DNA of 64,000 nt from positions 620,001 through 684,000 of the forward strand of contig NZ_JAMSLS010000001.1 in NCBI RefSeq assembly GCF_023806465.1. The letters run 5' to 3'. The notes under the pieces are model-generated. The model was not told the DNA's origin. It worked only from the letters and a program-made list of their open reading frames with translations, and did not search any database. Made by a program: the position numbers and the translations under genes. Of the stretch, positions 24,652 to 45,863 are shown one piece after another (the first letter of the stretch is position 1; each line of letters begins with the position of its first letter). Source of the stretch: Thermomicrobium sp. CFH 73360. GTDB taxonomy: Bacteria > Chloroflexota > Chloroflexia > Thermomicrobiales > Thermomicrobiaceae.

Positions 24652-24915
24652 CTAAACAAGCTGCGACGGTGCATTCTTTACGATACCGATCGTGACGCGC
24701 TTAGCCACTGAGGCCTGTGGAAGGATGTAGAATTGCACGGTGTCATTGTCCTGGTCGATGGCCCGCTCCAGTTCCTGCTGGAGGCGGCGGAGCTGTGCAG
24801 GAGTCAATTCTCCCTCGAGGAGAGAGTTCTGCACCCAGGTTAAGTACTTGCGGCAAATCTTGAGTACTCGTGCGACCCGTTCCACCCCCACGTCATAGGC
24901 GACGATGACGTACAT
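24652..24915 (-). CDS. cas2: CRISPR-associated endoribonuclease/integrase subunit Cas2
   Basis: 87 residues, normal for Cas2. Ferredoxin-like fold beginning MYVIVAYDVGVERVARV with the conserved Asp (D9) after the first strand, then RKYLTWVQNSLLEGELT, typical of type I-B proteins. Cas2 bridges two Cas1 dimers during spacer integration. It is last in the operon, 74 bases after cas1. Confidence 0.95.
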   Translation of the reverse strand: MYVIVAYDVGVERVARVLKICRKYLTWVQNSLLEGELTPAQLRRLQQELERAIDQDNDTVQFYILPQASVAKRVTIGIVKNAPSQLV

Positions 24916-24989: not shown

Positions 24990-25976
24990 TTAGCCGCGTA
25001 GTGCGAAGGGCAAGAACTCCTGCTCTCCAAGCAAATGCTTCTCGATCTTGTACAGCTCGAGCCGCAGCGTGGTGCGGTAGGAAACCGAACGATTGAGCGT
25101 GGGATGACGGTACGTCTCTTGTAGCGTTTGTTCCCAGGCCTCGACGACCAATTTGCGGCCATCGTCGTCGAGGAAGACCCCTTCAGCACCAGTCACGAAG
25201 TGCCGTCGTTGGAGCTGTCCCCGGTTGACGAGGCGAAAGATGAGGCGGTCAACGAGCACCGGCTTGAAGATCTCGGCTACATCAAGATTGAGCGTATGGC
25301 GACGGAAATTCGTCTCATGAAGATACCCGATGCGCGGATCCAGGTGCGTCTGATAGATCTGTGCCAGGACAGCGGTGTAGAGAAGCGAGTTCCCGAATGA
25401 AATCAGTGCGTTCGTTTCGTCGCGAGGCGGGCGACGCGTGCGCGGACCGAATGGGAACTCGGCGTCGATGATGCGAGGCCAGACAGCGTAATAGGCTTCT
25501 CGCGCATGCCCCTCCAGCGCCATGAGTGCAGTCGGCGAGTCTGCCGCATCGAGACCGGCCAGTGCCTGGTCAACGACCTCCAGTGCCTCTTGAACGTCGA
25601 CCTGCCGGCGACGGTAATACAGGAGGACGGTGCGGATATTCCGGAGCGACCCGCGGACAAACGCCCGAGCGAGCAAGAGGCGCCGTGATTGGTCTAAATA
25701 GTGTTCGACCTGGCGGAGAATGAGGGCACCGCTGGCGAGGTACTCACGCGGATAGAATGTCCCAGAGTAGTAGCCGTAGCGGTTGAAGAAGTGGAGGAGG
25801 ATCCCCTCGCGAGCCATGAACTCGAGGAAGCGCTTATTCAGGTCAACTTCACCGAAGATATAGAGTTCGCTGACCTGCTCGACCGGGAGGAAGCGCTTGC
25901 CCTCGTCGGTTTCCAGGACGATCGTATTCTGGTGCCGGGCAAGTCTTCCCGAAGAGAAGACATAGACCGGTTTCAT
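24990..25976 (-). CDS. cas1: CRISPR-associated integrase Cas1 (type I-B)
   Basis: 328 residues from MKPVYVFSSG. The metal triad is visible: E155 in LMALEGHAREAYY, H220 in GYLHETNFRR and E235 in LNLDVAEIFKPVLVDR. It integrates protospacer DNA at the leader end of the array with Cas2. The ATG overlaps the cas4 stop in ATGA, so translation is coupled; a longer frame inside cas4 was rejected. Confidence 0.97.
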   Translation of the reverse strand: MKPVYVFSSGRLARHQNTIVLETDEGKRFLPVEQVSELYIFGEVDLNKRFLEFMAREGILLHFFNRYGYYSGTFYPREYLASGALILRQVEHYLDQSRRLLLARAFVRGSLRNIRTVLLYYRRRQVDVQEALEVVDQALAGLDAADSPTALMALEGHAREAYYAVWPRIIDAEFPFGPRTRRPPRDETNALISFGNSLLYTAVLAQIYQTHLDPRIGYLHETNFRRHTLNLDVAEIFKPVLVDRLIFRLVNRGQLQRRHFVTGAEGVFLDDDGRKLVVEAWEQTLQETYRHPTLNRSVSYRTTLRLELYKIEKHLLGEQEFLPFALRG

Positions 25977-26578
25977 CGCTGCGTCTTCTCCGCCGTTGAG
26001 ACCTGTCGAGTAGGACGACGCCGCGGTGTTGCCTGCGATTCTTCGTCTGCCTCCGAGACCCAACAGAATTCATAATAGGCACAGTGTGTACATGCCGGAA
26101 TCCGTACGGGAGGTGGAGGAACGGGGCGGGCGAGGAGTTGTTCGATGCGCGTGATTGCTTGGCGCACCGCGGCCTCTAGTTCGGGTGTTAGTTCGACCGG
26201 TTCAACGCGACGCTGCTCGGGATAGCGGAGTTCACCACGGACGTGGAGGCCGGCCTCACGGAGTCGGAGGAGGTAATAGCCGAGCTGGAGGCGTTGGGCG
26301 TGTTGGGCACGCGGCGAGCGCTTCACCTCGCCGATAACGAGTGCCTCATCCTCCTCGGCATCAGTGGGGCGACGTCGGAGCACGTCGACTTTCATGCCGG
26401 GGAGGGCAAGTTCCTTGCGTTCGCGCGGATAGGCAGATTCAGCGAGCACCCGACCCAGCGCCAGGAGCTCGTGGTCGCGGTACGGCTCGATTGCATGTGC
26501 CATAAGCCATGCCTGGCGCGGGCAGATAGCAACGTACCAGATAAGCGTTCCGGTCACACGAATTGGTTCAGATCCCAT
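25973..26578 (-). CDS. cas4: CRISPR-associated exonuclease Cas4
   Basis: 201 residues. RecB-family nuclease core with D65 (MKVDVLRR) and E84/K86 (VIGEVKRSPR) plus the four iron-sulphur cysteines C19, C163, C166 and C172 (ACTHCAYYEFC). Cas4 trims prespacers and sets PAM orientation. It starts inside the last codons of cas3 (25-base overlap). A basic tail follows the last cysteine. Confidence 0.94.
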   Translation of the reverse strand: MGSEPIRVTGTLIWYVAICPRQAWLMAHAIEPYRDHELLALGRVLAESAYPRERKELALPGMKVDVLRRRPTDAEEDEALVIGEVKRSPRAQHAQRLQLGYYLLRLREAGLHVRGELRYPEQRRVEPVELTPELEAAVRQAITRIEQLLARPVPPPPVRIPACTHCAYYEFCWVSEADEESQATPRRRPTRQVSTAEKTQR

Positions 26579-28956
26579 TTGAACCCTGTCTTCTCATCGT
26601 AAAACGACTCCAGTTGCTCACAAGTGATCAACCGCAGGTCCTCACGGCCGTGAAGAAGTGGCGGCGGCAGATTACCAACAGCGCGCTGCAATAGTGGCGT
26701 AATGGTATAGTACTCCAGTTCATGGAACGCTTCCCGCACGGCAAGACGGCGCTCATGCGGATGTTCGAGTGCCAGAGCGTTCAGTACCTTCTTGATGGCA
26801 GTCGTGGCATGATCATCCTGCTCCACCACAATACTCAGTGCGGGTAGTTCTTCAATAAGGCGGAAACAGCTGAGCGGAACAGAGGCACCCAACTTACGGC
26901 AGTCGACATTTGGACGATCGTAGTCGAGGGAAGCAACTGCCTTAAGTAAGGCTTCCGCATGGGCTTGACTAATCCGCTGCTCGATGGTTTGAAAGTAACA
27001 ATCGAGTCGTTGAATCAGTTCCAGATCGCTCATAGCTTCGGGTAGGTGAGAGCGTGCCGCCTCAAGCAGGATACGACCGTAGACGCGCTCTCCCTGACCT
27101 TCCTGCAGAGGGATCACTCGCAAAAACGCTAGAGATTGTTCAGCGTTTCGGTTGATACGCCCTGCCACCTGGAGCAAACTCTCGAGAGGCCCCCATTCTC
27201 GCCAGCCTACCTGAAAATCAACATCAATACCAGCCTCGACTACTTGCGTACTCACCAAGACAACGGGTTCACGTGCCAGGAGTAGCTTCTGTATTTCCGC
27301 GAGTCGCCTGCGGCGGTCACGGGGGGTAATGTTGGTGGACAGATAATAAAGATACGGGAAACTGTAACGCTCCAAGGCGCGATAGAGTTCAAGAGAAACC
27401 CGGATACTGTTCACGACAATGAGTTGACTGCGATCCCGAATGCCTGCGATCGCCTCAGCTAATTCTGGTATCGTTTGAGGGGCTATGGGCTGCAGCACGA
27501 CTCTTGACGGGTAGTCCGTCAGCGGCGGATCCACAAGTTCAAGCGCGGCACCAGACTCGACCAAACGCGGCTGGGTCGCCGTCATAAGGATGACTGTGAC
27601 ATTCCATTCTGGAAGATCGGCAAGAAGTGCCCGAAGAAGAGGCCAATAATGGGCATCAAGCGCCTGAACTTCATCAAGAATAAGGATAGAACCAGAAACC
27701 AGCGTATGCAATTTTTTGAGCGATCTATTTTGATACCCGACTAACGTATGGAACACCTGCACAAACGTTGTAAGCACTATCTCCGCATCCCAGGACTCTG
27801 CGAGGAGCAGTGCTTCGTCCACATCAAGATCTTCCTCAAACTGGTCCTGATTCGCAGCTTGTGCCGCAGTGTGACTGGCACCGCGCCGCACTAGAGGCGC
27901 AAGATGATGATGCTCGATCAGGACATCGTCTGGGTCAAACCCACCCGTAACGAGAACATTCCGTACCACAGATGCTGTCTGCTCAATGAGATTGATATAC
28001 GGCAATGCGTAAATAATACGAGGGCTCCAACCACACTCTTCCTCGACACGCGCACGGATAGTCAGCGCTGCGTGCAAGACCGCAAGCGTCTTCCCTGCTC
28101 CCGTTGGTGCAGTGAGGGTGAGAAGTGCAGGGAAAAGCTCCGGGAGCGGGCGCAGAGAAACCTGTCGGGCCACAGTCTCAAACAATACTCGCCGCTGCCC
28201 TTGCAAAGGACTAGCGCGGGAGCTAGTGGTTGCCAGGTAGCGAACGACGAGATCACGTGGCAAGCGAACCCGTTCGGGATTCTGGTATTGTGCGGCAAGC
28301 TTCTTATCCGCATCGATCAAAGCGGAAAAGAGAATATTGATCTCCCAGTAGCGACGGCGTGCCTGGGGATCATGAAGAGTCGGCAAGGCATGAACTTTAA
28401 GACGCCACGCCTCCTCGCAAAGCTCCCGAAGAATATCCCATATCTCGCCCTGAAGAAATGGAGTTGGGTCAGGCAGCGCTAATTTCTCGCATAATGAAGG
28501 CCAACTCTTCGCCACCTCTGGAATTTGCCGACAAAGGGCACGGAGTACACGTCGTAAGCCTTGCCGATCGACAGTCAAGAAGTCAGGTGGATCAATATCG
28601 TCCGGATCAGGGAGGAGAGCTGCCGGAGTGCGCAATGGACCGTGGTGACGGGCCACAGCAAGGAAAACCGCCAGTGCATCGAAACCTCTTTGCTGAGCCA
28701 CCCAGGCCCCAAAGAGTGCACCAATGTATGCGTGATTTGCCGCCGGATCTGCGAACTGTGGGTTGTTTAAGCGCTGCTGAAAGAACGGAGTTGCTTTCCC
28801 TAAATCATGCACCAAGCCGACAAGCTCAGCCATTTCGGCAAGCGAGGGAGGAGCGAAGTTCCGCGCAAGTGTCCCCACCGCACGGAGATGGGTCACGAGC
28901 TCTTCCCCCTCCCTAGCAAGCCACTCATTCGTATGGTTTAGTCGATCAGGGCCCAT
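26554..28956 (-). CDS. cas3: CRISPR-associated nuclease-helicase Cas3
   Basis: 800 residues. HD nuclease at the N-terminus (LVHDLGKATPFF, H50-D51; NHAYIGALF, H75; ARHHGPL, H104-H105) followed by a superfamily 2 helicase: Walker A APTGAGKT (283-290), DEVQ box in ILILDEVQALD (428-431), motif III LMTATQPRL, and a C-terminal motif VSTQVVEAGIDVDF with LLQVAGRINRN. It degrades the displaced strand after Cascade recognition. HD and helicase are fused in the normal order, and no domain is broken. The start overlaps the end of cas5 by 19 bases. Confidence 0.97.
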   Translation of the reverse strand: MGPDRLNHTNEWLAREGEELVTHLRAVGTLARNFAPPSLAEMAELVGLVHDLGKATPFFQQRLNNPQFADPAANHAYIGALFGAWVAQQRGFDALAVFLAVARHHGPLRTPAALLPDPDDIDPPDFLTVDRQGLRRVLRALCRQIPEVAKSWPSLCEKLALPDPTPFLQGEIWDILRELCEEAWRLKVHALPTLHDPQARRRYWEINILFSALIDADKKLAAQYQNPERVRLPRDLVVRYLATTSSRASPLQGQRRVLFETVARQVSLRPLPELFPALLTLTAPTGAGKTLAVLHAALTIRARVEEECGWSPRIIYALPYINLIEQTASVVRNVLVTGGFDPDDVLIEHHHLAPLVRRGASHTAAQAANQDQFEEDLDVDEALLLAESWDAEIVLTTFVQVFHTLVGYQNRSLKKLHTLVSGSILILDEVQALDAHYWPLLRALLADLPEWNVTVILMTATQPRLVESGAALELVDPPLTDYPSRVVLQPIAPQTIPELAEAIAGIRDRSQLIVVNSIRVSLELYRALERYSFPYLYYLSTNITPRDRRRRLAEIQKLLLAREPVVLVSTQVVEAGIDVDFQVGWREWGPLESLLQVAGRINRNAEQSLAFLRVIPLQEGQGERVYGRILLEAARSHLPEAMSDLELIQRLDCYFQTIEQRISQAHAEALLKAVASLDYDRPNVDCRKLGASVPLSCFRLIEELPALSIVVEQDDHATTAIKKVLNALALEHPHERRLAVREAFHELEYYTITPLLQRAVGNLPPPLLHGREDLRLITCEQLESFYDEKTGFKWDLNQFV

Positions 28957-29693
28957 CGCTCTGATTCGATCTGCAGCCAGCGTCCACGATAGCGGCAGCG
29001 GATAGGATACCCTCGCAAATCGACAATGAGATCCCGTGCGTCGACGAGGCGCCGTTGCTTATCCAGGCGGACCGGATAGCGGTCGCGGGAAAGGCGATGC
29101 GGAGTACGCTCATCCAGCACAAACTCCTCAATCTGCGAGGCATCCAAAGCCCCAAGATAATCAGCAACAGAGGGGTCATCATGTCCGACCTCAGCCTCGT
29201 GAACCTCAACCCCCTCGATCCACCCAAGACAATAGGCTGTGCCGAGTGCCGGTGGATAGATCGGAGCTCGCAGTGCCTCTGCCAATTGACCTACGGACAG
29301 TCCTTCCGGAGGCACCAGAACCAGATGAAATCGCAGTGATGTCGTGTCCCAGTCATCGAAACTTGTCTCTGGCAGCAGAAATTGTGTAGGAATCTGTGTC
29401 CGCGGCTCGAAACCACGAAGCTCTCGTTCGGTACCCGACTTCACCATCAGCGCATTGGTTGATTGAAGCAGTGCGCGAAGTGGCTGTCGCACACCGATAG
29501 CCATCTGCAATGTGCGCAGTCTCTCCGGATAGTCACTTGGCTCCAGGCCCAGTGCAGCGGCCACCAAGCCGCGGATCGTTGAGGGGGGCGGTATCGGATA
29601 GCTCAACGATGACGAGTTCGTATAGAAGCGCCGGAAATGAGCAAATTTTCCGCAGAGGTCACAGTGGACAACCGCAACCATTGCGCGCCTCAC
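28938..29693 (-). CDS. cas5: Cascade subunit Cas5 (type I-B)
   Basis: 251 residues. The N-terminus VAVVHCDLCGKFAHFRRFYT and SYPIPPPSTIRGLVAAALG is the RAMP Cas5 signature for types I-B/I-C. Cas5 caps the 5' handle of the crRNA. The GTG at 29691-29693 overlaps the cas7 stop (GTGA); an ATG four codons in (29681) with GTGAGG upstream is equally possible. The C-terminal half is less conserved, as usual. Confidence 0.93.
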   Translation of the reverse strand: MRRAMVAVVHCDLCGKFAHFRRFYTNSSSLSYPIPPPSTIRGLVAAALGLEPSDYPERLRTLQMAIGVRQPLRALLQSTNALMVKSGTERELRGFEPRTQIPTQFLLPETSFDDWDTTSLRFHLVLVPPEGLSVGQLAEALRAPIYPPALGTAYCLGWIEGVEVHEAEVGHDDPSVADYLGALDASQIEEFVLDERTPHRLSRDRYPVRLDKQRRLVDARDLIVDLRGYPIRCRYRGRWLQIESERWALID

Positions 29694-30667
29694 CCGCTCA
29701 CCCGCACAACGTGGGGCAGTTGCAAAAGCGCTTCTTCACCGCGGACGTTGAGCTCGTCGTGCCGCCAGTAGCGGACACTGGCAATGTCGTCGCGATAGCG
29801 CATGATGCGGCTGACCAGCGGCTGAAGATCGAGCACAAACTCCTCGATACTCCGCCAGCGCTCGACGGGAAGCTCCTCTTGGGCCGCCAGGAGACGAAGA
29901 CCGTCGCGTGGATCGCCGAACGACGGCGCACGGTCCTTCCAGTCAACACGCAGATATAACCGTGGCGTCTGTCCCAGTTTACTTCGCGTGGTCGCCTCAC
30001 TGGAGAGCGCATGAAGGAGTGCATCCTCCAGTGCCTCAAGATCCTCAGCTGTCATCTGCGTTGCCTTGGCGCGGTGGGCGGCAACGTGCCCCCAAAAGGC
30101 GATCAGGGCATAAAGAACACGCCAGTCCTTCCCGATGGTTCCGTATTCGCCCTTTTCTCCCCCACGACCAGCAAACATCGAGGTAATACTGTTTGATGGG
30201 TTTATTTCCACTGGATGCAGAGAGTATCCCCAGCTAAACTGAACAGGCCCGGTATATTGCTCGGACAGCCCACGACTACTCTGACCCGCTTTAATTGGTA
30301 GTGTTGCACCAAAAAGGCGGACATCAATAAGTCGGCTCAGGAACCATTGCCGGTATTCCTCGTCGGATCGGGTGCCTCGACGACCAAGCTGCTGCCCGGT
30401 TTCCTGCTCGAAAACCTTCCGCAAGTCTTCCTCGCGTTGCGTCGCATCCACGCGGCTGCCATCGTCCCGCGTGCGCACCCAGACATCCAAATCTCGGGAG
30501 AGCCAGTAGTCACGGAGGAAGCGCTTCAACCGAACATCGCTCACCAGCACGCGCTGCGTGAACGGATCCATGCGCGGCCGATTCTCATCGTCCGGATCAC
30601 CATTCGGGTTCGTCAGCTTGGCATCATACAGGAACAACAGGTCGGCATTCCGTACCTGGTTATCCAT
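29690..30667 (-). CDS. cas7: Cascade backbone subunit Cas7 (Csh2-type)
   Basis: 325 residues. Csh2/Cas7b features: DLLFLYDAKLTNPNGDPD near the start, RMDPFTQRVLVSDVRLKRFLRDY, and GPVQFSWGYSLHPVEINPSNS with FAGRGGEKGEYGT in the middle. Multiple copies coat the crRNA spacer. It is followed by cas5 with a four-base overlap and preceded by cas8b with a 40-base gap. Confidence 0.95.
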   Translation of the reverse strand: MDNQVRNADLLFLYDAKLTNPNGDPDDENRPRMDPFTQRVLVSDVRLKRFLRDYWLSRDLDVWVRTRDDGSRVDATQREEDLRKVFEQETGQQLGRRGTRSDEEYRQWFLSRLIDVRLFGATLPIKAGQSSRGLSEQYTGPVQFSWGYSLHPVEINPSNSITSMFAGRGGEKGEYGTIGKDWRVLYALIAFWGHVAAHRAKATQMTAEDLEALEDALLHALSSEATTRSKLGQTPRLYLRVDWKDRAPSFGDPRDGLRLLAAQEELPVERWRSIEEFVLDLQPLVSRIMRYRDDIASVRYWRHDELNVRGEEALLQLPHVVRVSG

Positions 30668-30707
30668 TGCGTTCTCCTTCCTTGACTCGCTTCATGCGCG
30701 TTTGCCT

Positions 30708-32900
30708 CTACTGTACTTCTTGTAGCTCGGCAGCTGATTTGTCACGCCCGCGACGAATCATCCGACCCGTTTCATAGGCGTAGCCAGCTAAAACGAAATA
30801 GACGTTTTCCGCGTCAGTTAATGGCCAGTGGGAGCGATGTCGAGTGAGTTGCTGGATCGCCTCAGCGAAGAGCACCTCATTCTCCGCTGCATACTCACCA
30901 CTGAGTAACCGATACTGGCGTAGTTTGTCAAATAACTCATTCGCAAAGACGATCACTCGTGGTAACGACATGCCACTGTAGTTTAATTTCTCTAGGATCG
31001 GCTTTGTTCTGGACTGATCACTCCGATATTGCTCTGTTGCTACTCGCGCAAGCAAGACCCCCAGCAAGAACAGCGACTGCTCCTGCTCTGAAAGACCAAG
31101 TTCTCGCATCGCCGTACGGTACGATTCTGGCACAAGCACACTCACTGCAGCACCTCCAAAAGACGTGCACCCAACCTCACGTACGATAAGTCGCAAGGCA
31201 AGGGTACGAGCAAGGTACGCCCGCATCACCCGATCCACCTCTTCGGAGGATGGGGAGCGATCTTTCCATTGTTGCGAGACAAGCCAATATCCAGTGTGAG
31301 CGCTACGAATTGCACGAACCCCTTCCACAAACGCAGCATGGAGATCAGCGAGATCGATCGGCTCCTGTTGTAGAAGTTGACGAGTCAGTGTCAATGCCGG
31401 TCGGATCACTGGCCTCCCCTCACTGCGGCGAATGGGAAGTGTATCTAACAAAGCATCGAGTCCATCAAACCACACTTGATTGATAGGCCCGACGAGAGGC
31501 TCAGCCCAGCCGCCAGCCCCAGCTGCGTCGTTGACTTGATTGATCGCCACAATCACCTGCTGGACACGCGAGGGCGGTACCTCCGCCACGACTTCGCGGA
31601 TTTTAACCGCCATGTTCTGCTTTTCGTGGAAGAGCAACGTCAATGCAGCGTAGCGAGCTGAGCGCTCTTGTGCAACCGCCGCAAGGTCTTTTGTCGCCTG
31701 CCGAAGTTGCTTGACGCGACCAAGCTCAGTAGCCTGCTGCCGTATGCTTTGGAGAACTCGTCGAACGCCATGAAGATCCGTGGACGGTTGCAGCACAAGT
31801 TCTGGAACAAGGAAAACCGGCGACCGAAGGAGCTGCACTTCCAATTCCTGCTCCAGGAGTCGATCAGCAATTAACAGATAGGTGTAGCACCTCTGACATA
31901 TACTATAGCGCTCCCAAAATCCATCTCTCCGAAGATTTCCAGCAAAACTGACTTTATCATTAATGAATATCTTTATTCGCATGGGCACAAAATTGGAAGT
32001 AACCACCGCTGTCTTTCCGCAAAGGTGACAAGTACCGCTGATGCTCTCCTGCCCCTGAAACGGCTCATCGAGAAGAACTGAACGTATGTATTCACGGTAT
32101 GCTGATTGTTCAGCAATCGGGCAGCCTTCAATGCTCAGGGTAATGTACTGGACCTCCTTCTTCCATCCCAGCGCTTCACGAAGCTCATGCGTCAGCGCGT
32201 CGCGCAATCCCTTGGCCAGCTCGTCAGGCCGCTCTTTTCGCCCTTGCGGGGCCTCTTGCCTCAGCTTGTCCCAATTGATCTGCACAATACCATCATGCAC
32301 CTGAAGAATTCCTTCCTTTATCGTTGTAGTCGGTGGCGGATCGAGCCGCAGACCGTCGAGCTTTAAGAAAAAGCGATCTCGCGGCCGCACCGATTTCTTA
32401 AACTCCTCTAATTCCTGCACATCACAAAGGGCCGTAAAAATGTTATTCAACTCTTGAAATTCATGCAGATTCTTAAAGTCATACAGCATCGGCTTTATCG
32501 GCTGAATACTCGGCTCCAGTTTATCCAATGCTGGATGCTGCGATTCCCCCAACAGAAGCCGTGGAGCAAGACCAACGAAGACGGGACCAAGCAGATACTT
32601 CAAGTCGCGGACCGTTACGTCGCGTACGTCGCCACCTGGCGAGAACTTCATAAGCTGGAGCCATAGGAAACGCCGCAAGTTCTCGGCGCTTGCTTCCACG
32701 AGATGGTGTCGTACAGTTCGAGTTGACGGCGACACATCGAGCACGCCGATGTAGGTGCGCGCTGTGCTTACCTTCCCATCACCCGCCAACGGTGGACTGT
32801 CATCAGCAGTCGTCAATGCCAGTTGCTCGACGATCGCTTCAGGATCATCCCGAAGCAGTTCGGCAATCGATCGTCCTAATGCGTACAGACTCCGGATCAT
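30708..32900 (-). CDS. cas8b: Cascade large subunit Cas8b (Csh1/TM1802 type)
   Basis: 730 residues. Assigned by context and overall pattern: a large protein between cas6 and Csh2-type cas7, with a zinc-finger-like pair CHLCGK (about residue 292) and CQRCYTYLL (about 340) typical of TM1802/Csh1 proteins. The large subunit recognises the PAM and recruits Cas3. The sequence is fast-evolving, so no catalytic motif is expected. ATG at 32898-32900 overlaps the cas6 stop in ATGA. Confidence 0.92.
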   Translation of the reverse strand: MIRSLYALGRSIAELLRDDPEAIVEQLALTTADDSPPLAGDGKVSTARTYIGVLDVSPSTRTVRHHLVEASAENLRRFLWLQLMKFSPGGDVRDVTVRDLKYLLGPVFVGLAPRLLLGESQHPALDKLEPSIQPIKPMLYDFKNLHEFQELNNIFTALCDVQELEEFKKSVRPRDRFFLKLDGLRLDPPPTTTIKEGILQVHDGIVQINWDKLRQEAPQGRKERPDELAKGLRDALTHELREALGWKKEVQYITLSIEGCPIAEQSAYREYIRSVLLDEPFQGQESISGTCHLCGKTAVVTSNFVPMRIKIFINDKVSFAGNLRRDGFWERYSICQRCYTYLLIADRLLEQELEVQLLRSPVFLVPELVLQPSTDLHGVRRVLQSIRQQATELGRVKQLRQATKDLAAVAQERSARYAALTLLFHEKQNMAVKIREVVAEVPPSRVQQVIVAINQVNDAAGAGGWAEPLVGPINQVWFDGLDALLDTLPIRRSEGRPVIRPALTLTRQLLQQEPIDLADLHAAFVEGVRAIRSAHTGYWLVSQQWKDRSPSSEEVDRVMRAYLARTLALRLIVREVGCTSFGGAAVSVLVPESYRTAMRELGLSEQEQSLFLLGVLLARVATEQYRSDQSRTKPILEKLNYSGMSLPRVIVFANELFDKLRQYRLLSGEYAAENEVLFAEAIQQLTRHRSHWPLTDAENVYFVLAGYAYETGRMIRRGRDKSAAELQEVQ

Positions 32901-33649
32901 CGCCTCGGCACCTCTCGATCAGGGACCTCCTCCACATACCCGAACCCTTGACTGTTTTTCGCCCCGAGCCCCGCTTCGAGCGCAAGCCGGAGGTACTCCG
33001 CCGGCCCTTCCAGCAGAAATCGCCCGACCCACCCTTCGATCCAAGTCCCCTTGTAACATTCCAGCCGTTTGCCCCTCGGATGCACACTGAGCGCCTGCAC
33101 GCGGACTGTCCCCTCCCTCCCCTCCACACCGAGAACCGACGCCTTGCGCCGGAGATTGGCGACCACCAGCTCGCCAAATTCCTCATGCAGTGGGTTGTAG
33201 TACTGTGTGCGCCGCTTTCCCTCGATCTCCAGCGTCCGATAGACCGTGATCGGCGAAAGGGCTCGTACCACCAGCCGCTCCTCCAGCGCCGGCAATGCCA
33301 GTGTGGCAATCTCCCGCACTGCAAACTCCAACGTCGCAATCCGTATTCGGCCAAACCGCAACAAGCCTGCTGCCAGCCCCAACGCCAGATCTCGCTCTGG
33401 CGACGCAAAGCGGAACCAGACCGGCCCCCTGATCTCGACCCCTTCACCCGGCCGATACTGGACCTCCCCATGGAGCTGCGAGAAGACAAACAGCTTCAGT
33501 GGCCGTTCACTCTGCCAATAGGCACCATCGTGCAACGGCTGCCCAATCTCCCGCGGGAGATGTCGATAGATCATCGCCTGCAGCGCCTCACGGTACTGCA
33601 GGGGAAGGACCCCTAACCGGTCCGGCTCCAGCCGGATCTCCAGACGCAC
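32897..33649 (-). CDS. cas6: CRISPR pre-crRNA endoribonuclease Cas6
   Basis: 250 residues. RAMP fold with the C-terminal glycine-rich loop in EAGLGAKNSQGFGYVEE (about 222-238). A histidine such as H30 (MIYRHL) or H40 (QPLHDGAYW) may be the catalytic base. It cuts within the repeat to leave an eight-base 5' handle, CTTGAAAC for this array. GTG start (33647-33649). First gene of the cas operon. Confidence 0.93.
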   Translation of the reverse strand: MRLEIRLEPDRLGVLPLQYREALQAMIYRHLPREIGQPLHDGAYWQSERPLKLFVFSQLHGEVQYRPGEGVEIRGPVWFRFASPERDLALGLAAGLLRFGRIRIATLEFAVREIATLALPALEERLVVRALSPITVYRTLEIEGKRRTQYYNPLHEEFGELVVANLRRKASVLGVEGREGTVRVQALSVHPRGKRLECYKGTWIEGWVGRFLLEGPAEYLRLALEAGLGAKNSQGFGYVEEVPDREVPRR

Positions 33650-35116: not shown

Positions 35117-35133
35117 AAAGAACGGGCCCGCGG

Positions 35134-35217
35134 CGGAGAGGGAGGGATTCGAACCCCCGAGGCTCATCGCCTTGCCGTTTTCAAGACGGCCGCCTTCAAC
35201 CACTCGGCCACCTCTCC
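35134..35217 (-). tRNA. tRNA-Ser (anticodon TGA)
   Basis: Acceptor GGAGAGG with CCTCTCC, anticodon stem GCCGT/ACGGC with loop CTTGAAA (anticodon TGA), long variable arm, T-arm with TTCGAAT. It is the first of a two-gene serine tRNA unit on the minus strand. CCA is not encoded. Confidence 0.94.
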
Positions 35218-35231
35218 GCGCACCACGCTCT

Positions 35232-35259
35232 AGTGTACAGACCACCACTCGAGCGTGAA
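35232..35259 (-). promoter_or_regulatory. Promoter-like elements of the tRNA-Ser pair
   Basis: Minus strand TTCACG (35259-35254), 16-base spacer, TACACT (35237-35232); transcription would begin about eight bases before the first tRNA. A second -10-like TATACT lies further upstream, near 35275. Confidence 0.4.
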
Positions 35260-36120
35260 GCCCGTGCTGACAGTATAGCAGCGATGGAGGAGATCAGTCC
35301 AGGGAGAGCGCGACCGCTCAAGTGGCCGCTCTCCACCGAATCGGCGGGGGTCAGCCCATCCAATGCCGTACAAGGTCGTTCGATCGCCGCTCTGACTGCA
35401 CTTGCCAGGCACTCTCCAATTCCGCAGCATTCACCACTCTGCCTTTTCAATCGGCCGTTGTCGACTCCGCATCGTACGGACAGAGGAGAAGCCTTCACAC
35501 GTGACCACCCTGCCGCACCACGAACCTGCACTGAGCACTCGACGAACGCAACTCCCCGCTCTTTCGTGCCCCGATGCGAAGACATTGAATCTGGAGAATA
35601 AGCGCCACGGACGTCACATTGCTGGTCGTGAGTGCGGGTGGGTGGAAAGCCTTGTAGTGGCACGATGCAGGACCGCAGTACCCTTGGCGGGACACGACCG
35701 GCTTGCGACCGTTTTACGGCAGATTTCTCGAGTCATCTCTGCAGTCCGCTCGTGTTCGTGCGCACCTGCACCCCTTGCGCCCGCCAGGTCAATGAGCGCC
35801 TTGGGAGATACGCCACACTGTCTGTGAGGTGGTGATCGCAAGGACAGCAACGCAATCGTCGGACAAACAGTCACCATGGGACGAGCACGTCAGCTTCTTC
35901 CCATACCTCTAGTGTCTGCCGACGCAACGGGGCCGACCTGCGGGCGATGACAACGCTCGGGCAGAAGGATCGGTCTCGTCCGGCCTGTGCCGCGCTCCGA
36001 CGCACCGCCGTCGCCACTCCTGTGCGAGCTGCAAATAGTGTTTGCTGTCCTCCACCGGAGTCAACCGTGTTGCGCGAGATGAGCCCGGGGCAACACCGTG
36101 ACCGCTCGGGACACGCCAGT
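35260..36120. other. Gene-poor region, no gene seen
   Basis: Frames up to 155 codons on the minus strand have no recognisable character. From about 36060 the sequence begins to show the CAGC-centred periodicity described in the next repeat entry. Confidence 0.4.
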
Positions 36121-36533
36121 CAGCAAAGGCTGGACAAGAACTCGCTGCGCTCCACTGAATGCGTCCATGACACACACGGTCCCAGCAAACGGCGAAGCCC
36201 TCGACCTCCCCGTCCGGGTCGTGATCGTCTGCGTCCATGACACACACGGTCCCCAGCCCATCCTCGACGAACAGCAGGCATCGCCATTGGGAACAACCGC
36301 GGGAGCGCATGGGGTATCAGCTCGAATTGTCGGGCCAAAGGCAGCGCACCCGGCACCAGCACCCGCAGCGCACCCGCGTATCAGCTCGAATTGTCGGGCC
36401 AAAGGCAGCGCACCCGGCACCAGCACCCGCAGCGCACCCGCGTATCAGCTCGAATTGTCGGGCCAAAGGCAGCGCACCCGGCACCAGCACCCGCAGCGCA
36501 CCCGCGTATCAGCTCGAATTGTCGGGCCAAAGG
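36121..36533. repeat. Tandem direct repeats, period 62-71 nt (core units exactly 64 nt)
   Basis: Four copies of a segment starting GTATCAGCTCGAATTGTCGG begin at 36314, 36378, 36442 and 36506; the first three units are identical over 64 nt. To the left, the 23-nt segment beginning GCGTCCATGACACACACGG occurs at 36161 and 36231 (70 nt apart), and a shared CAGC anchor recurs at 36121, 36183, 36254, 36318, 36382, 36446 and 36510. Because 64 is not a multiple of three and frames differ between copies, this is not a protein repeat. The spacing equals that of the CRISPR units at 40097-45863, but the sequence is unrelated to that repeat. Confidence 0.85.
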
Positions 36534-37048
36534 GAATTCGTGCGCTCCCGCTCGTTTCACCGGAAAGATGCGCGATCCACGCCATCCACCCCGTTTTCCA
36601 GCGGACGCCCAACCCGTACTTCTATGCTGTGGGCGTAGGTATTGACTGTTGCAGAGAAGAGACGTCCTCTCTCCAGCCACACGCATGGCGCAGCGTCTTC
36701 GGCCCAGCGGATACAAGTGGTCACTCGGGTCCATGCCTGTCCCGCAATCACTCTGGGCTTCTCCAACCAGTCCAGTACAGGGAGCACCTCTGAGGTTTCC
36801 TGACCGGCGCGAGACACTGCCGGGTCGTTCCCTTCGCTCAGACCGGTGGCAGCTCGAAGATTTCCCGACTCAGGCTTGCCGAGAGGCGAGGCCTCCACAT
36901 GCGAACGATAACCGCTAAATCATTGAGCTTCTGGCAAACCGCTCGGCGGTCTCCTACGACTGAGGTACGACACGTCGCTCGTGAGCTCGCGGACGCAAGC
37001 CGACGATGAACCGTCAAGCGAGAACCTCGGCGTCCATCGTCGTCGACT
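36534..37048. other. Gene-poor region between two repeat blocks
   Basis: No gene and no clear repeat seen over about 500 bases. Confidence 0.4.
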
Positions 37049-37400
37049 CCAATCACGAAGCGTCAGGGAGGAACTGACGCCGAGTTCACGACTGACCCCC
37101 TGCAGCATGCAGTCGCCATTCATGAAGCATGAGGTGAGAACTCCTCGAGCGTCGCCCGAACACGCTCATGAATGCCATCTCCATTCATGAAGCATGAGGT
37201 GAGACGGAGGACTCGCTCACGGCCTCCTGGCGGATGCCGGAATCTCCATTCATGAAGCATGAGGTGAGACGGAGGACTCGCTCACGGCCTCCTGGCGGAT
37301 GCCGGAATCTCCATTCATGAAGCATGAGGTGAGACGGAGGACTCGCTCACGGCCTCCTGGCGGATGCCGGAATCTCCATTCATGAAGCATGAGGTGAGAC
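37049..37400. repeat. CRISPR-like block: five 24-25-nt repeats spaced 65 nt apart, plus one decayed copy
   Basis: The element beginning CCATTCATGAAGCATGAGG begins at 37116, 37181, 37246, 37311 and 37376, always 65 nt apart. A decayed copy (17 of 24 matches) starts at 37049, 67 nt before the first. The 40-nt interval after 37116 is unique; the three after 37181, 37246 and 37311 are identical to one another. The element contains the palindrome TTCATGAA. Repeat and interval lengths look like a small CRISPR, but the repeat does not match the large array and three identical intervals also fit simple tandem duplication. Confidence 0.85.
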
Positions 37401-38117
37401 CCCAGCTTCACCGATTGACGGCAACCTTGGAACAACCCACGAGCTTGCAACACAACCGGTAGCAACCCAGTTTCACCCCGTATTCGAATCGTCGGCTGCT
37501 CTCCTCGACCGATCGGGTGCCGGTGGTACCCTGCCGCTTTCTCCCGTGATCTGCAACGACAACAGTGTCCGACGGGGGAGTCCTTCACGGCGGGCGATTA
37601 CCGTCATGTATCTGGGACAGGGACGCTCGTGCCCAACAGGAACGGATCCACAGCTGGAACGGAGCCCATCGTCGGAGGGTCGAGGGTCCCTAATCCTCGT
37701 CTAACGAGAAGTCATGTCGAGGTGGAGCGCCCCTCAGAGACTCGGAGAGACACGCATGACGTGGGCTGACCGGAAGGGTTCCCGACGGTTCGGCAGACAG
37801 ACGCGAGGAAGCACCGTGGGGAGTGGCTCGCCTGGCAAGGGGGAACACGATGGTTCCCGTGGAACGGTTCTCCCCGTGCGACGCAATGATATCTTCTGTT
37901 CACCAAACACGAGGTCGACGGAGGCGATCGCAGTCGTTTGGCGCCGGTAGCGCGTCCTCACGGTGAGATGACAGTCATCAGATGATGAGCAAGGAGAGCT
38001 GCCCAAAGGCAGCCAGTGCTCGCACCGCTGGGTCACGTGCTTCCGCTCGTTCAGCATCCTTTGCATAGCCATCGGGCGACGTTCCTCACCGACCCAAACA
38101 CGTCCCTTCCACTCCTG
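37401..38117. other. Gene-poor region with faint periodicity
   Basis: CCCAGCTTCACC (37401) and CCCAGTTTCACC (37466) are 65 nt apart, continuing the spacing of the block to the left with a different sequence. Nothing else recognisable; no gene seen. Confidence 0.4.
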
Positions 38118-38201
38118 GTCCGAGCGCCTGCTTGACAAATGGGAGGGCGACGGGGGCGCGCAGACCTGGTCGACGATCGGGTCGGAGCTCCCGCTTGACA
38201 A
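38118..38201. repeat. Pair of 21-nt direct repeats 63 nt apart
   Basis: GTCCGAGCGCCTGCTTGACA (38118) and GTCGGAGCTCCCGCTTGACA (38181) match at 18 of 21 positions counting the following A. A weak third copy (GTGATCGCCTGCGTATCGAA) starts at 38243. The intervals of about 42 nt are unrelated to each other. Confidence 0.6.
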
Positions 38202-39310
38202 CCGAGAAGTCCTTCGCCCACCGAAGCACAACAGCCACTCTCGTGATCGCCTGCGTATCGAAGCCGTCCAACGCGTGGCCGGGCTCGTGTGCTCCTGCAC
38301 GGTGTACGGGTTCGTGTTCGGTGGCTGTCCATTTCCCACATCTTGTTAAAGACTTCCGACCACTTGCAACGGCACGGGTGTTATCGGGTGATCTCTGTGT
38401 TGGAGCCCGGCGGGCTAAGGCCGAGATCGTCCAGCGCTCGTCGGGATCAGCGAGTGTTCTCTGTCTGGTTTTTGTTGTGGACCATGGTCAGGAGCGCCTA
38501 TGCAATGGCACGTGCCGAAACACGTTTCCACGAGGACACCCTGCGCATGACAGCTTTGAGAAGGCAAGCAGGGATGTCTTGGGACAGCAGAGAAAACCGG
38601 CATGCCCTTTCGAGCCGTTCTCTGATACGCATTGGAACAGCGCATCCGGCCAGTCTTCTCAGCGACGGAGTCAAGGGACCTTTCGGCGCAACCTGCGATG
38701 GGAAACTCACCTTCAGACTGATTGGCGTTGCAACACGTCACCGGCGGCCGGCACCCGCGTTCGCTACTTCCAGAGGTGCATCACGAAGACGATTGGTAAA
38801 GGCCCGGAAAGCCAGTCGGGCCCCAAGAGGCGACTGTGCGCCTTCTCTTTGCGAGACACTTTGATGGCGAGGCGAAGTCGCCCCCGCGTCCACCCGTACG
38901 AGCGGCTTCTCTTGCTGAACAATTCGCGGCAACAGGCGAAAGCAGGGTGATGCACCAGGACATGGCACCCTTCGGCCGACCGCACTTTTGTCGATGCCCC
39001 CAGCGCAATACTCGAGTCGCGCGAGATGCGAGCCTTCACCGCCGGTCGACGATGGCGATACCTTGGCTTGACAGCTATGGCAGCCATAGCCGTCTGCTGC
39101 GACAACAGAGGGGCATCTGCCTACTCCCGGGTGCGGCGAGGTCGGGCCGGAGCAACTCCTGTGAGGAGTCTGGGAGCTTCTCGACCAGGCATCCGGCATT
39201 CCGCGGTCGCAGTGGAGCGACTGCCGTCAGAGACCACGACGTTAAACCCTTCTCGGTTACCCTCAGTCAGGCTGCATCATGGTCCTACCCCCAGCACCCT
39301 GCAGACCTCT
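38202..39310. other. Gene-poor region, no gene seen
   Basis: About 1.1 kb with overlapping frames on both strands (up to 270 codons on the plus strand) that lack recognisable protein character and carry codon use unlike the neighbours. No convincing repeats in the middle part. Confidence 0.4.
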
Positions 39311-39876
39311 TGTAGAAGCCCCTGAGGACGTGACGGATGCTCCCTCACGACCACAACGAGTGGCGTAGCGAGCGCATCTGCAACCCTGAAGAAACGTGTC
39401 GGATCGCATGGTCATACCTGATCCCTCTCTTCTGCTCGCATCTGCGCCCTTGAGCATGCGTGTCAGATGCTTCCACTCCTTACGCGCAAAAGGCCGCGCC
39501 GGCCTGACCGCAGTCAACACCCTCCCCGAGTGCGATGATCTTGCCGCCAAAAGGTCTTCGTTTCAAGCCCTCATAGGTACTGTGCGAGGATATTGACTGC
39601 GGTGATCTTGCCGCAGGTTCCAACCACTCGCCTCAGCCTCACGGCAGTTGGGCCGGGGGCATCTACGACATCCGGGTCGACGCTCATTCGCTTGTACGAG
39701 CCGCAGTGGGTCCTAATGTAGGATGCATCTACGACATCCGGGTCGACGTGGTGGTCGTCGAGGACGCCTTCGATATAGACGAATGCAGGACGCATCTACT
39801 ACATCCAAAACAACGCGATCAGCCCTCGGCCAGCCCATCACTGACAAGTGATGGATCTACTTCATCCAGGTCGACG
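39311..39876. repeat. Decayed direct-repeat array, period 61-68 nt, just left of the CRISPR leader
   Basis: Related short elements recur at near-constant spacing. CCCTGA-GA-CGTG-CGGAT elements are at about 39320, 39384 and 39448 (64 apart), with GCATCTGC leading the last two. TGCGATGATCTTGCCGC (39531) and TGCGGTGATCTTGCCGC (39598) are 67 apart. GCATCTACGACATCCGGGTC is at 39659 and 39725, with weaker copies at 39792 and 39853. The intervals of about 40 nt are all different. It looks like an array whose repeats have drifted stepwise; neither this consensus nor its intervals match the main CRISPR repeat, apart from the inverted piece at 39560-39583. Confidence 0.65.
39560..39583 (-). repeat. Isolated, inverted partial copy of the CRISPR repeat
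   Basis: These 24 bases are the exact reverse complement of the last 24 bases of the 30-nt array repeat (the part ending GGGCTTGAAAC); the first six bases of the repeat are replaced. It stands about 510 bases left of the first true repeat, reads on the minus strand and keeps the eight-base handle CTTGAAAC. It lies inside the decayed repeat array, between the two TGATCTTGCCGC elements, and is flanked by an 11-base inverted repeat (39507-39517 and 39593-39603). Confidence 0.9.
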
Positions 39877-40028
39877 AAGATGCAGCACTTTTCTCCTCGC
39901 GCGATGGTGCATCCGAAGGGGGCTGACGGAGCCGTCGACCACCGGTACTGCAAAAAGCCCCGGGGGTCGACGAATTCCGGGACCTGCTCTTCACCCTGAA
40001 ACCATACGGACTGCGAATACCCACCCCC

Positions 40029-40057
40029 TTGCCCTGCGCAGGTTTGCGTGCTACGTT
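40029..40057 (+). promoter_or_regulatory. CRISPR leader promoter
   Basis: TTGCCC (40029-40034), 17-base spacer, TACGTT (40052-40057). Transcription would begin about 30 bases before the first repeat, in the direction that yields crRNAs with the CTTGAAAC handle. The leader is not AT-rich. Confidence 0.5.
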
Positions 40058-40096
40058 TATCAAAGAGGATCGTCGCATCCGTGCGGCGCCCGTTTG

Positions 40097-43000
40097 GTTC
40101 AGACAGTACCTATGAGGGCTTGAAACATCGTCGCCACAGGGATCTAGCGCGACAGAAAGGAGGGTTCAGACAGTACCTATGAGGGCTTGAAACCCGAGAT
40201 CACCATGGCACTGGATGCAGACGGGGCGGGTTCAGACAGTACCTATGAGGGCTTGAAACGAGCTCCGGTCGACCGTGCAGCCGCTGTTTCGCAGGTTCAG
40301 ACAGTACCTATGAGGGCTTGAAACGGGATTGCGCTCGAATTCGGACGATGGCCAGTCCACGTTCAGACAGTACCTATGAGGGCTTGAAACAACAGGCCGT
40401 GCAGGCTGCCAATGGTAAGCGCCATCGTTCAGACAGTACCTATGAGGGCTTGAAACGGCGGTTGTAGCGGTACATGAGTTCGACGAGGCGCGTTCAGACA
40501 GTACCTATGAGGGCTTGAAACAGCGATTGCGCTCCTCCTCGCTAATCTGGTGGTAGCGTTCAGACAGTACCTATGAGGGCTTGAAACTCGCGTGCGGTTG
40601 GTCAACAACCTCGCCAGTCTCTGGTTCAGACAGTACCTATGAGGGCTTGAAACCTGGGATCTTCGCCGAAGGGGCAAGGGAAGAGGAAGTTCAGACAGTA
40701 CCTATGAGGGCTTGAAACGTCATAGAGCGCCAGATAGGGGAGATCCTGCGTCAGTTCAGACAGTACCTATGAGGGCTTGAAACTGCGGATCAGGACCGCT
40801 TCCTTCGCCGGTTCATCACGTTCAGACAGTACCTATGAGGGCTTGAAACATAGTGCACCAACACTGGGCCCGTTTCGCGCATAGCTGTTCAGACAGTACC
40901 TATGAGGGCTTGAAACATTGCGATCGTTCGCGACGTCTTGCCGCCGAATGCATGTTCAGACAGTACCTATGAGGGCTTGAAACGCAGACTGGAGTTGGCG
41001 TGATGTCTGGGCCTACATGTTCAGACAGTACCTATGAGGGCTTGAAACGCCGGTGTCTCCGCATCGCCGTCATTTCGCCGCGGAGCGTTCAGACAGTACC
41101 TATGAGGGCTTGAAACACGGACGTCCCGCCATGCCCCCACGCCGCCATGAACGTTCAGACAGTACCTATGAGGGCTTGAAACGCGGCATGCCTCGGAGCT
41201 CTGGGAAATCGACGATCTGTTCAGACAGTACCTATGAGGGCTTGAAACAGAATATCAACAGCCATCAATAACAGTAACGCTATGAGTTCAGACAGTACCT
41301 ATGAGGGCTTGAAACAGGGGTGGTTGGAGCTCCGTACCGTGCCGCCGCGCCGTTCAGACAGTACCTATGAGGGCTTGAAACACGGACGAGGTCATCCGTG
41401 ACGCTCAGGGGTGCATGTTCAGACAGTACCTATGAGGGCTTGAAACCACGAACGAACCGGTCAGGAATGGGTCATCGATACGGTTCAGACAGTACCTATG
41501 AGGGCTTGAAACGAAAATCTCGTATTCCAGCGCCCTCAATACGCCACGTTCAGACAGTACCTATGAGGGCTTGAAACCGGGGCCAGAGACGGGGTGTCAG
41601 GCGAATCTGGAACCGTTCAGACAGTACCTATGAGGGCTTGAAACAGCGGTGGTTGGAGCTCCGTACCGTGCCGCCGCGCCGTTCAGACAGTACCTATGAG
41701 GGCTTGAAACACGGACGAGGTCATCCGTGACGCTCAGGGGTGCATGTTCAGACAGTACCTATGAGGGCTTGAAACCACGAACGAACCGGTCAGGAATGGG
41801 TCATCGATACGGTTCAGACAGTACCTATGAGGGCTTGAAACGAAAATCTCGTATTCCAGCGCCCTCAATACGCCACGTTCAGACAGTACCTATGAGGGCT
41901 TGAAACCGACATTGCGCGCCAGGATGCCCCACTTGACGGCAGTTCAGACAGTACCTATGAGGGCTTGAAACTGGGAGCAGCAGACCGGCCAGGATCAGAA
42001 GACGTTGTTCAGACAGTACCTATGAGGGCTTGAAACTGAAGAAACGGCTTCCACATCACACGCACCCCAGAAGTTCAGACAGTACCTATGAGGGCTTGAA
42101 ACCTCGAGCTCGGCAACGATGAGCTCCTGCACGGCAGTGTTCAGACAGTACCTATGAGGGCTTGAAACCCCCATCCCCATCGTGACAAGGAGGTTCCCGA
42201 ATGCGTTCAGACAGTACCTATGAGGGCTTGAAACCTCGACCCCGCCTTCGTCTATGCCCAACGCGGTGCGCGTTCAGACAGTACCTATGAGGGCTTGAAA
42301 CTTCATGAACACCGTCACCGGCGAGGAGAACCTTGGGGTTCAGACAGTACCTATGAGGGCTTGAAACTCGTGTTGCCACCTTGACCCAGGCGTCTCCATA
42401 CAGTTCAGACAGTACCTATGAGGGCTTGAAACGCGATACGATGGGCCCACTCCCAATCCCGGGCGTGGGTTCAGACAGTACCTATGAGGGCTTGAAACAA
42501 TACATTAAAGAACACGTAATGAACTTCGTTTGCAAGTTCAGACAGTACCTATGAGGGCTTGAAACTGTCACGGCTGGGCAATTTCTTCGGCTTGCAGTCG
42601 CTCGTTCAGACAGTACCTATGAGGGCTTGAAACTGGGGATGAGCGGAACATTGAGCGCTGGTTGGGTATGTTCAGACAGTACCTATGAGGGCTTGAAACT
42701 GGCCCCGCAGTGCCAATCGATGCCGGGGCAGTCCATGTTCAGACAGTACCTATGAGGGCTTGAAACCATGTGACGCCGCAGCGGGTGCAGGTGTTGGTCA
42801 ATGTTCAGACAGTACCTATGAGGGCTTGAAACGCGAGCTCCGCCACAATCAAGCCGGCGCTGCAGTAGTTCAGACAGTACCTATGAGGGCTTGAAACGTT
42901 ACCATCGCTGCGCCCCCTGGTGGAGCGTGCCTGTTCAGACAGTACCTATGAGGGCTTGAAACCAATGCGCGGAGAATGGGCGTCGAGCCGGTTTTCTCGT

Positions 43001-45863
43001 TCAGACAGTACCTATGAGGGCTTGAAACTCTCGTCACCGAAATGGACAATGGGGCTGACGGCCTGTTCAGACAGTACCTATGAGGGCTTGAAACCCTCCA
43101 AGAATAGCGGAAATCCGATAACTAGCATATGTTCAGACAGTACCTATGAGGGCTTGAAACCCGTGCCCTCACCGCTTGCGCGGTGAGGGCAGAAACGTTC
43201 AGACAGTACCTATGAGGGCTTGAAACCGGAGTGAATCCCTTAATAGGGCGCTCAGCATTTACGTTCAGACAGTACCTATGAGGGCTTGAAACCTCAAGCT
43301 CGGCCCGGAAGGCGGCCACCGCCGCGGCGTTCAGACAGTACCTATGAGGGCTTGAAACTGTATAAATCGTCAGTGTCATGTGAGCTCCAGAACGTTCAGA
43401 CAGTACCTATGAGGGCTTGAAACCAGAATAATCCAGAGCGGTGTCCGATCCTCCACGTAGTTCAGACAGTACCTATGAGGGCTTGAAACTCGGATACGCT
43501 CCATGACGCCCTCCTTCCAGCAGTGGTTCAGACAGTACCTATGAGGGCTTGAAACTCTCTTTCACTACTACTGCAATCTCGCAAACGTCTGGTTCAGACA
43601 GTACCTATGAGGGCTTGAAACCCGGAACGGGTCCTCTATCTGTCCCATGCGGAAGAGTTCAGACAGTACCTATGAGGGCTTGAAACTCGAGCGCGTTGTG
43701 CGCATCGATGGAGACGCTGTTGTTCAGACAGTACCTATGAGGGCTTGAAACGCGGATATACACGATAACATGCTCATCGCTCTCCTGGTCGTTCAGACAG
43801 TACCTATGAGGGCTTGAAACTCCGGTAAAAGTCGGACAACGCCTCATTGTAATTGCGTTCAGACAGTACCTATGAGGGCTTGAAACACCCCAGTGGGCCA
43901 CGTCGGGGCTGGGGAGGAGCTAGTTCAGACAGTACCTATGAGGGCTTGAAACCGCCAATAGAGGGGTGGTCGTCGCAGCGTTCCCCAAGTTCAGACAGTA
44001 CCTATGAGGGCTTGAAACCTCGTTGCGCGTCATCCATTGGCCTTGCCTCTCGAGTTCAGACAGTACCTATGAGGGCTTGAAACCCCAGGTGGCCAGTGCG
44101 GGCCGGTGCCATATGGCACGTTCAGACAGTACCTATGAGGGCTTGAAACAGCAGCTCCGAGAAGCGGTGGTCAAAGCGGGAGGCGTTCAGACAGTACCTA
44201 TGAGGGCTTGAAACGCAAAATCCACGAGCGCAACAGAACGACGAAATGTTGTTCAGACAGTACCTATGAGGGCTTGAAACCGGGCCTCGTGGATGCAGCA
44301 AGGGGCGCGACGCGGGGTTCAGACAGTACCTATGAGGGCTTGAAACAGGCTCGTCGCGCACTGGAGCTGGAACGAGCTCGGCGTTCAGACAGTACCTATG
44401 AGGGCTTGAAACTGATCACTCTAATCCGCATATCCCTTATGAAACACGTTCAGACAGTACCTATGAGGGCTTGAAACTGATCATAAAAGTCCACTCGGTA
44501 CAGTGTGCACTCAGTTCAGACAGTACCTATGAGGGCTTGAAACGCGCTCAATAATGCGCAGATTCCCCGCCGCGAACTTGTTCAGACAGTACCTATGAGG
44601 GCTTGAAACAGGAGCAATTCATCATCACAGGGGAACGAACCATCAGTTCAGACAGTACCTATGAGGGCTTGAAACTCGGATACGCACTGGCTGACCTCAT
44701 TAAGTCAGCTCAGTTCAGACAGTACCTATGAGGGCTTGAAACAGGTCTCTGTCGAGGGGGCATCAGCTGTTGTCGTACTGTTCAGACAGTACCTATGAGG
44801 GCTTGAAACAGCTTAAGTGTCTCGCAAATGTAGCGCAACTTATGCGTTCAGACAGTACCTATGAGGGCTTGAAACTAGGTCGTTGGTATCACGTATGCGC
44901 CGACGCTATAGGTTCAGACAGTACCTATGAGGGCTTGAAACCAGAAGATCAGGCATCACCTTCGGCCACCATGGACCGTTCAGACAGTACCTATGAGGGC
45001 TTGAAACGAGCGCGTGGGGCCGTTCGCAAACGCAGTGCACCTCGGTTCAGACAGTACCTATGAGGGCTTGAAACTCAATCTCGCCTCCTTCCCTTACTAT
45101 GCGGAAGCGCGTTCAGACAGTACCTATGAGGGCTTGAAACTCTCATCTCCAGATCAATGTGCCCATCACCACCGAGTTCAGACAGTACCTATGAGGGCTT
45201 GAAACTCAACAATGTGTCTCTCGCTTGTCGACGAGGAAACGAGTTCAGACAGTACCTATGAGGGCTTGAAACTTCGAGTAGCCCAACCCACTCAATGCGC
45301 CGCTGGAGTTCAGACAGTACCTATGAGGGCTTGAAATACGCACGAATCGTGTGCGTGCGTGCAGAGTAAGGAAGTTCAGACAGTACCTATGAGGGCTTGA
45401 AATAGCGATTGTGATAGAAGCACATGAAGTATGAGGCGTACGTTCAGACAGTACCTATGAGGGCTTGAAATTGGCGAGGAGCGAGCTCCGTATCAGAGAC
45501 CAATACGGTTCAGACAGTACCTATGAGGGCTTGAAATTCCTGTTACCTGATTAGGACGACGACTGTCTCATCCGTTCAGACAGTAGCTATGAGGGCTTGA
45601 AACCGGAACTCGGGGAATGCACCGCTCGGCGCCTCGCCGGTTCAGACAGTACCTATGAGGGCTTGAAACGCTGGTACGGGTATGTGGGCTGCTGCATAGC
45701 CGACTGGTTCAGACAGTACCTATGAGGGCTTGAAACGAGAAAGATGCGATTCCCCTCTCGTTGCTCCTTCATGTTCAGACAGTACCTATGAGGGCTTGAA
45801 ACCAAATTATCACGAACGAGGATCCGCTGGAATACGAGAGTTCAGACAGTACCTATGAGGGCT
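40097..45863 (+). CRISPR. Type I-B CRISPR array, 88 repeats and 87 spacers
   Basis: A 30-nt repeat beginning GTTCAGACAGTACC and ending GGGCTTGAAAC recurs every 64-68 nt (hand count 88, the last cut to 24 nt); spacers are mostly 34-38 nt. The conserved GAAAC end is that of type I-B repeats, so transcription is rightward and the leader is on the left. Repeats 80-83 (45308, 45374, 45442, 45508) end in GAAAT, repeat 84 (45574) has C to G at position 13, and the last (45840) is truncated, marking the old trailer end. Four spacers are duplicated in a block (from 41316 and again from 41645). The matching cas operon lies 6.4 kb to the left on the opposite strand. Confidence 0.98.

Follow-up and report, generated by a model that had tools for sequence, protein, structure and literature searches.

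The window, by which we mean the whole analysed stretch of 64,000 nucleotides (positions 620001-684000 of contig C1 of genome G000, a genome of 3.06 Mb in 38 contigs), carries a complete type I-B cas operon on the minus strand, in the order cas6, cas8b, cas7, cas5, cas3, cas4, cas1, cas2, together with a type I-B CRISPR array and its leader (Table 1). The adaptation genes cas1, cas2 and cas4 are present as predicted open reading frames with family matches, and the closest named relative of the Cas8b comes from a Thermomicrobium MAG, with 59% identity. Two tRNA genes stand at 35023-35217; an Rfam scan of 33600-46700 returned these two and nothing else, and from cas6 as far as the gene at 46600 a gene finder based on codon usage predicted no protein gene. 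The stretch of ~1.4 kb from cas6 to the tRNAs (33650-35022) has no predicted gene and shows no repeats with the period of the array.

The spacers of the array are mostly 35-37 nt long, with 36 nt as the commonest length (46 of the 83 distinct spacers in the window). The variant repeats found at the 45.3-45.6 kb end and the conserved leader blocks at 39928-39978 together place the leader on the 40 kb side. These variant repeats are five in succession near the distal end (45314-45603), four of them ending in AAAT and one having AGTAGC. At 41286-41908 an array stretch of 329 nt with five spacers is tandemly duplicated, the two copies being identical over 294 nt. The idea that a terminal repeat cut short at 24 nt is conserved in relatives was also considered and dropped, for the single other case was a contig end.

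Table 1. Features of the type I-B locus, of the repeat-spacer units upstream of its leader and of similar units elsewhere in the genome (lag, distance between repeat copies)
Feature	Position	Strand	Description
cas2	24652..24915	-	PF09827, E 1.9e-21
cas1 (type I-B)	24990..26063	-	TIGR03641 above cut-off; PF01867
cas4	25973..26578	-	TIGR00372 above cut-off
cas3, cas5, cas7, cas8b, cas6 (type I-B effector and processing)	26554..33649	-	
u1	36160..36253	+	24-nt repeat, two copies, lag 70
u2	36314..36533	+	28-nt repeat beginning GTATCAGC, four copies; one 36-nt spacer three times; lag 64; leader-side junction GG|GT
u3	37112..37400	-	29-nt repeat, five copies (that at 37112 partial), lag 65; two distinct spacers, one present in three copies; junction GG|GT on the minus strand
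u4 (decayed)	38117..38201	+	22-nt repeat, lag 63
u5 (decayed)	39373..39468		32-nt repeat, 75% alike, lag 64
u6, left arm of 18-nt inverted repeat	39507..39524		matches the right arm (39586-39603) at 16/18; interpreted as the native stem ACCGCAGTC with the 12-nt loop 39516-39527 in flipped form
u6, left copy of putative duplicated target site	39517..39547		last 20 nt match right copy at 18/20; first 11 nt match only after un-flipping the 12-nt loop (26/31 overall)
u6, putative captured 36-nt 'spacer'	39548..39583	-	array repeat over 24 nt (39560-39583) on the minus strand, followed by 12 nt of putative spacer (39548-39559)
u6, right copy of putative duplicated target site	39584..39614		31 nt; lag 67 = 31 + 36
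u7	39659..39876	-	four repeat copies (two identical, two diverged), three different spacers; lags 66, 67, 61
Leader of the genuine array	39928..40096	+	block 39928-39978 conserved upstream of arrays in relatives
Genuine type I-B array	40097..45863	+	87 full 30-nt repeats (last ends at 45802), followed by a terminal one that stops after 24 nt (45840-45863)
Further units in the same genome (lag)	L048:13410 (66); L039:985 (66); L040:15615 (61); L082:17088 (67); L084:10408 (66); L075:2508 (64)		

The element under study, u6, lies upstream of the leader. Its positions 39560-39583, GTTTCAAGCCCTCATAGGTACTGT, are identical to the reverse complement of 24 nt out of the 30-nt array repeat, and the original prediction of an inverted repeat piece on the minus strand is confirmed in both its coordinates and its exactness. 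It is the sole reverse copy of the array repeat in the whole genome at up to three mismatches, and the 87 forward copies are all inside the array. The two features described around it, an 11-base inverted repeat and direct-repeat elements 67 nt apart, are real and reach further than had been recognised: the inverted repeat (39507-39517 / 39593-39603) grows to 18 nt with 16/18 matching (39507-39524 / 39586-39603), and the direct repeat, seen as TGATCTTGCCGC at 39536-39547 and 39603-39614, extends to 20 nt (18/20). This inverted pair is the only one of at least 16/18 within 110 nt in the whole of 35240-40096, and a minus-strand RNA of 39500-39615 has a predicted fold of -49.7 kcal/mol (z -4.3), with none of 200 shuffles equally stable. 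What had been overlooked is that 67 nt is the period of the array itself (30-nt repeat, 35-39-nt spacers) and that units of the same spacing fill the region. The 24-nt piece ends at 39583, exactly 36 nt past the end of the left copy of the direct repeat at 39547, and the repeat piece occupies the spacer slot of the unit.

Regarding these neighbours, six further repeat-spacer units, each with a different repeat sequence, lie in the gene-free stretch of 4.86 kb on the upstream side of the leader. The short direct repeats of 35240-40096 are all spaced 61-70 nt apart and are all different in sequence; when u2 and u3 are masked, 12 self-match segments are found at lags of 56-76, where about 1.1 are expected from 360 other lags. 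Units with exact borders share one build, namely 28 + 36 nt in u2, 29 + 36 nt in u3 and 30 + 36 nt in L059, a unit on another contig. For the decayed units the lag minus the repeat is less regular, at 29-47 nt (15 nt for L082, where the match is overlong), which is expected if the part that still matches has come to differ in extent from the duplication as first made. Inside the duplicated sites, likeness to the CRISPR repeat was not significant (p 0.05-0.97).

Units of this kind occur elsewhere in the genome as well. We scanned 705 kb, sampled in 54 stretches, for intergenic self-matches (L068 being left out as low-complexity) and obtained 10 segments with a score of at least 15 at lags of 58-72, where the other lags predict 0.87; gene calls trained on a different set gave 9 instead of 10. 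The strongest of them, L059:18918-19145 on contig C23, has a 30-nt repeat in four copies and an identical 36-nt spacer three times, and its repeat is unlike the CRISPR repeat save for GGCAGTAC, which stands in register with the repeats of relatives. Two of the nine distinct sites at this score, L048:15062 and L034:6740, look coding or low-complexity; they are counted in the density figure given next and were left out of the 15 units of the junction test below. Site density per intergenic kb is 22-fold higher upstream of the leader, with 7 sites in 4.86 kb, than in the sampled intergenic DNA elsewhere, with 9 in 138.5 kb.

Among the relatives, the Cas1-less G010 has no segment at lags of 58-72 and eight at other lags (score at least 11; a small sample of 38 kb of intergenic DNA). 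The Cas1-positive G006 has one clear unit, L091:16529 with lag 68, and no match at other lags scoring at least 18 in 72 kb of intergenic DNA. In G001, also Cas1-positive, no excess was found with the complexity filter on (none at lags of 58-72 with a score of at least 15, against seven at other lags), and hence how visible the phenomenon is differs between relatives. The leader-upstream DNA of the relatives holds at most weak candidate units, and an empty site was not found in them, the part of the flank alignable to G006 being only ~61% identical and the relatives too diverged. An intergenic cluster of palindromic repeats rich in CCTGG/CCAGG was seen in G001 (L106:9000-9470).

Some of the units also carry a junction motif at their borders. 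With borders taken exactly as the scan reported them, G|GT stands at an outer border in 6 of the 15 units, where 0.55 are expected (P 8.7e-6); it is absent from both borders of u6 and from eight other units of the 15. Genuine leaders end in G|GT in six of the seven readable cases, and L016 has C|GT.

On this evidence we regard it as probable that the flagged element is an ectopic 'neo-CRISPR' unit, left by misdirected Cas1-Cas2 integration of array DNA in a hotspot upstream of the leader. The cell's own Cas1-Cas2, probably with Cas4, would have captured a 36-nt fragment of array DNA running from a spacer into a repeat and misplaced it into non-CRISPR DNA ~500 nt upstream of the array, where gap filling would have duplicated ~31 nt of the target site. 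The insert has the composition expected of such a fragment, since 24 of its 36 nt are identical to the array repeat and the other 12 nt, which were not traced in the spacer comparisons, form the putative spacer. The build of the other units is likewise found here, as a 36-nt insert and a 31-nt duplication that matches at 26/31 only with the 12-nt loop un-flipped, and at 18/20 without un-flipping. As they stand, the two copies match at 19/31, the left 11 nt not matching; the loop at 39516-39527 lies between the stem arms ACCGCAGTC and GA(G/C)TGCG(A/G)T of the left copy, and turning it round lifts the match to 26/31. By a binomial estimate, the chance of the 8/11 match that results from un-flipping is 0.003. 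The target site may thus be pictured as a small stem-loop whose 12-nt loop was later flipped in the left copy; the long inverted repeat would then arise as a by-product, and such a flip, read post hoc, explains the 18-nt inverted repeat best. The gene-free DNA upstream of the leader would be the hotspot, its six more units differing in target sequence and in stage of decay; two of these upstream units may have been expanded by recombination, and u7 carries three different spacers. Of what was originally put forward, the observation stands, and the alternative of a spacer captured from the array itself fits best, with the addition that it would have been inserted outside the array; the headline of a crRNA-like RNA resembling CreA, to which we return below, is not supported.

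The sources of the ectopic spacers were sought in several ways. Compared with 960 array spacers from the window and the related genomes, they gave nothing convincing among the matches listed, and the spacers of L059 and u3b match themselves alone in their own genome. A search of viral contigs used the 21-nt cores of three spacers and a 31-nt piece of u6: one spacer gave a hit, which extends to 25/36 only and is put down to chance, and the others had no match. Array spacers and seven ectopic spacers were searched against the analysed DNA with arrays masked, with no match. As the ectopic spacers have no traced source, no PAM can be derived from them. Finally, none of the 960 spacers in the arrays of this genome and its relatives holds at least 11 nt of repeat, so that self-capture from an array is otherwise unseen.

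Other explanations have to be weighed against the same evidence. It is unlikely that the element is a scar of recombination, an alternative also named in the original prediction, or of inversion. An illegitimate event that carried an array fragment upstream in inverted orientation would leave a truncated repeat with a piece of spacer, as is seen, and other rearrangements such as triplicated spacers lie close by; but such an event predicts neither the 67-nt direct repeat around the piece nor the 36-nt insert, and it does not predict six more units with the same spacing and unrelated contents. Quite improbable, in our judgement, is a set of ordinary minisatellites or, upstream of the present leader, an older decayed CRISPR array with a different family of repeats. 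Although u7 resembles a small decayed array, with four copies of which two are diverged and with three spacers, one shared repeat would be expected of such an array; here each unit has a repeat distinct from those of the others and from that of the CRISPR array, and therefore the units are not remnants of one decayed array. A tandem-repeat finder does detect u2 and u3, yet minisatellites would not keep 61-70 nt across unrelated sequences, nor would they start with G|GT, and the similar units on other contigs argue against both origins.

Very unlikely is the headline of a crRNA-like RNA, taken as a CreA-like RNA or a crRNA-like autorepressor: Cascade would be directed to the promoter of a cas or toxin gene by an RNA that is transcribed from the minus strand and carries the handle CTTGAAAC. 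In its favour, the Cas6-type handle is retained exactly, the minus-strand fold is strong, and close to the cas promoter, at ~33715, the 12 nt after the handle match at 9/12, against mostly 7-8 with shuffled seeds. But this best match has its mismatches at positions 3-5, which belong to the seed, and apart from the element itself the 8-nt seed GAAGACCT has a single occurrence in the window, at 3315. Moreover, the lone repeat piece lacks its first 6 nt and has no second repeat downstream, the promoter and terminator scan around the element was empty with no promoter-like site in 39300-40097, the element cannot be aligned in the syntenic leader-upstream DNA of G006, and neighbouring units without any repeat piece already account for the geometry.

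Work in vitro and with overexpression has made off-target integration of spacers known. Nivala, Shipman and Church reportedly showed in 2018 that non-canonical spacer integration gives rise to new CRISPR loci, in which a spacer-length insert outside the array is flanked by a target-site duplication; the neo-CRISPR unit proposed here has the same layout. The setting differs, since PMC11788318 cites that work as Cas1-Cas2 overexpression, whereas here several units of different age are clustered upstream of the leader in a natural thermophile and one insert is CRISPR array DNA. For type II-A integration in vitro, the accessible part of PMC6895254 describes off-target Cas1-Cas2 sites that resemble leader-repeat junctions and favour guanine, which is like the G|GT in 6/15 units here; those products are probably half-site ones on plasmids, whereas ours would be full integrations fixed in the chromosome by a type I-B system with Cas4. 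Ectopic acquisition in Streptococcus thermophilus CRISPR3, as presented in excerpts of PMC7999890, also takes place away from the leader-proximal position, but at a site inside the array, whereas the sites here are no CRISPR repeats at all. CreTA resembles the present case in that a type I-B locus has a sequence similar to the CRISPR repeat beyond its array. As described in PMC9458426, CreA combines one degenerated repeat, or two, with a spacer-like segment that has complementarity to the creT promoter; promoter complementarity and a second repeat were not found here.

A natural cluster of such units was not reported in the open-access literature searched. We put forward, tentatively and as a possibility rather than an expectation, that the leader-upstream DNA is a natural 'landing zone' of repeated Cas1-Cas2 mis-integration, that some inserts became small arrays with repeats of their own (u7 in this zone, L059 elsewhere in the genome) and that the flagged unit is recycled array DNA. 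If this were true, misfires would be a raw material for new CRISPR arrays and for regulatory RNAs which bear repeats, and array DNA reused as a prespacer could seed an ectopic repeat, a plausible route for the birth of CreA-like or scaRNA-like ectopic repeats. Pieces of repeat would thereby have a concrete way out of arrays, a point of relevance to how ectopic-repeat regulators and new arrays originate. Besides, such a graded chromosomal record would let the target rules be read from nature, that is, the junction motif, the length of the duplication, the hotspot on the leader side, and age by decay.

The same leader-upstream region contains one conserved noncoding block at 37841-37931, ~80% identical in G006 and ~71% in G001, where it also lies upstream of the arrays; it is not in Rfam and may belong to an extended leader or be a small RNA. 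The gap between two conserved blocks, as read from the match positions, measures 2092 nt here, against 624 nt in G006 and 259 nt in G001.
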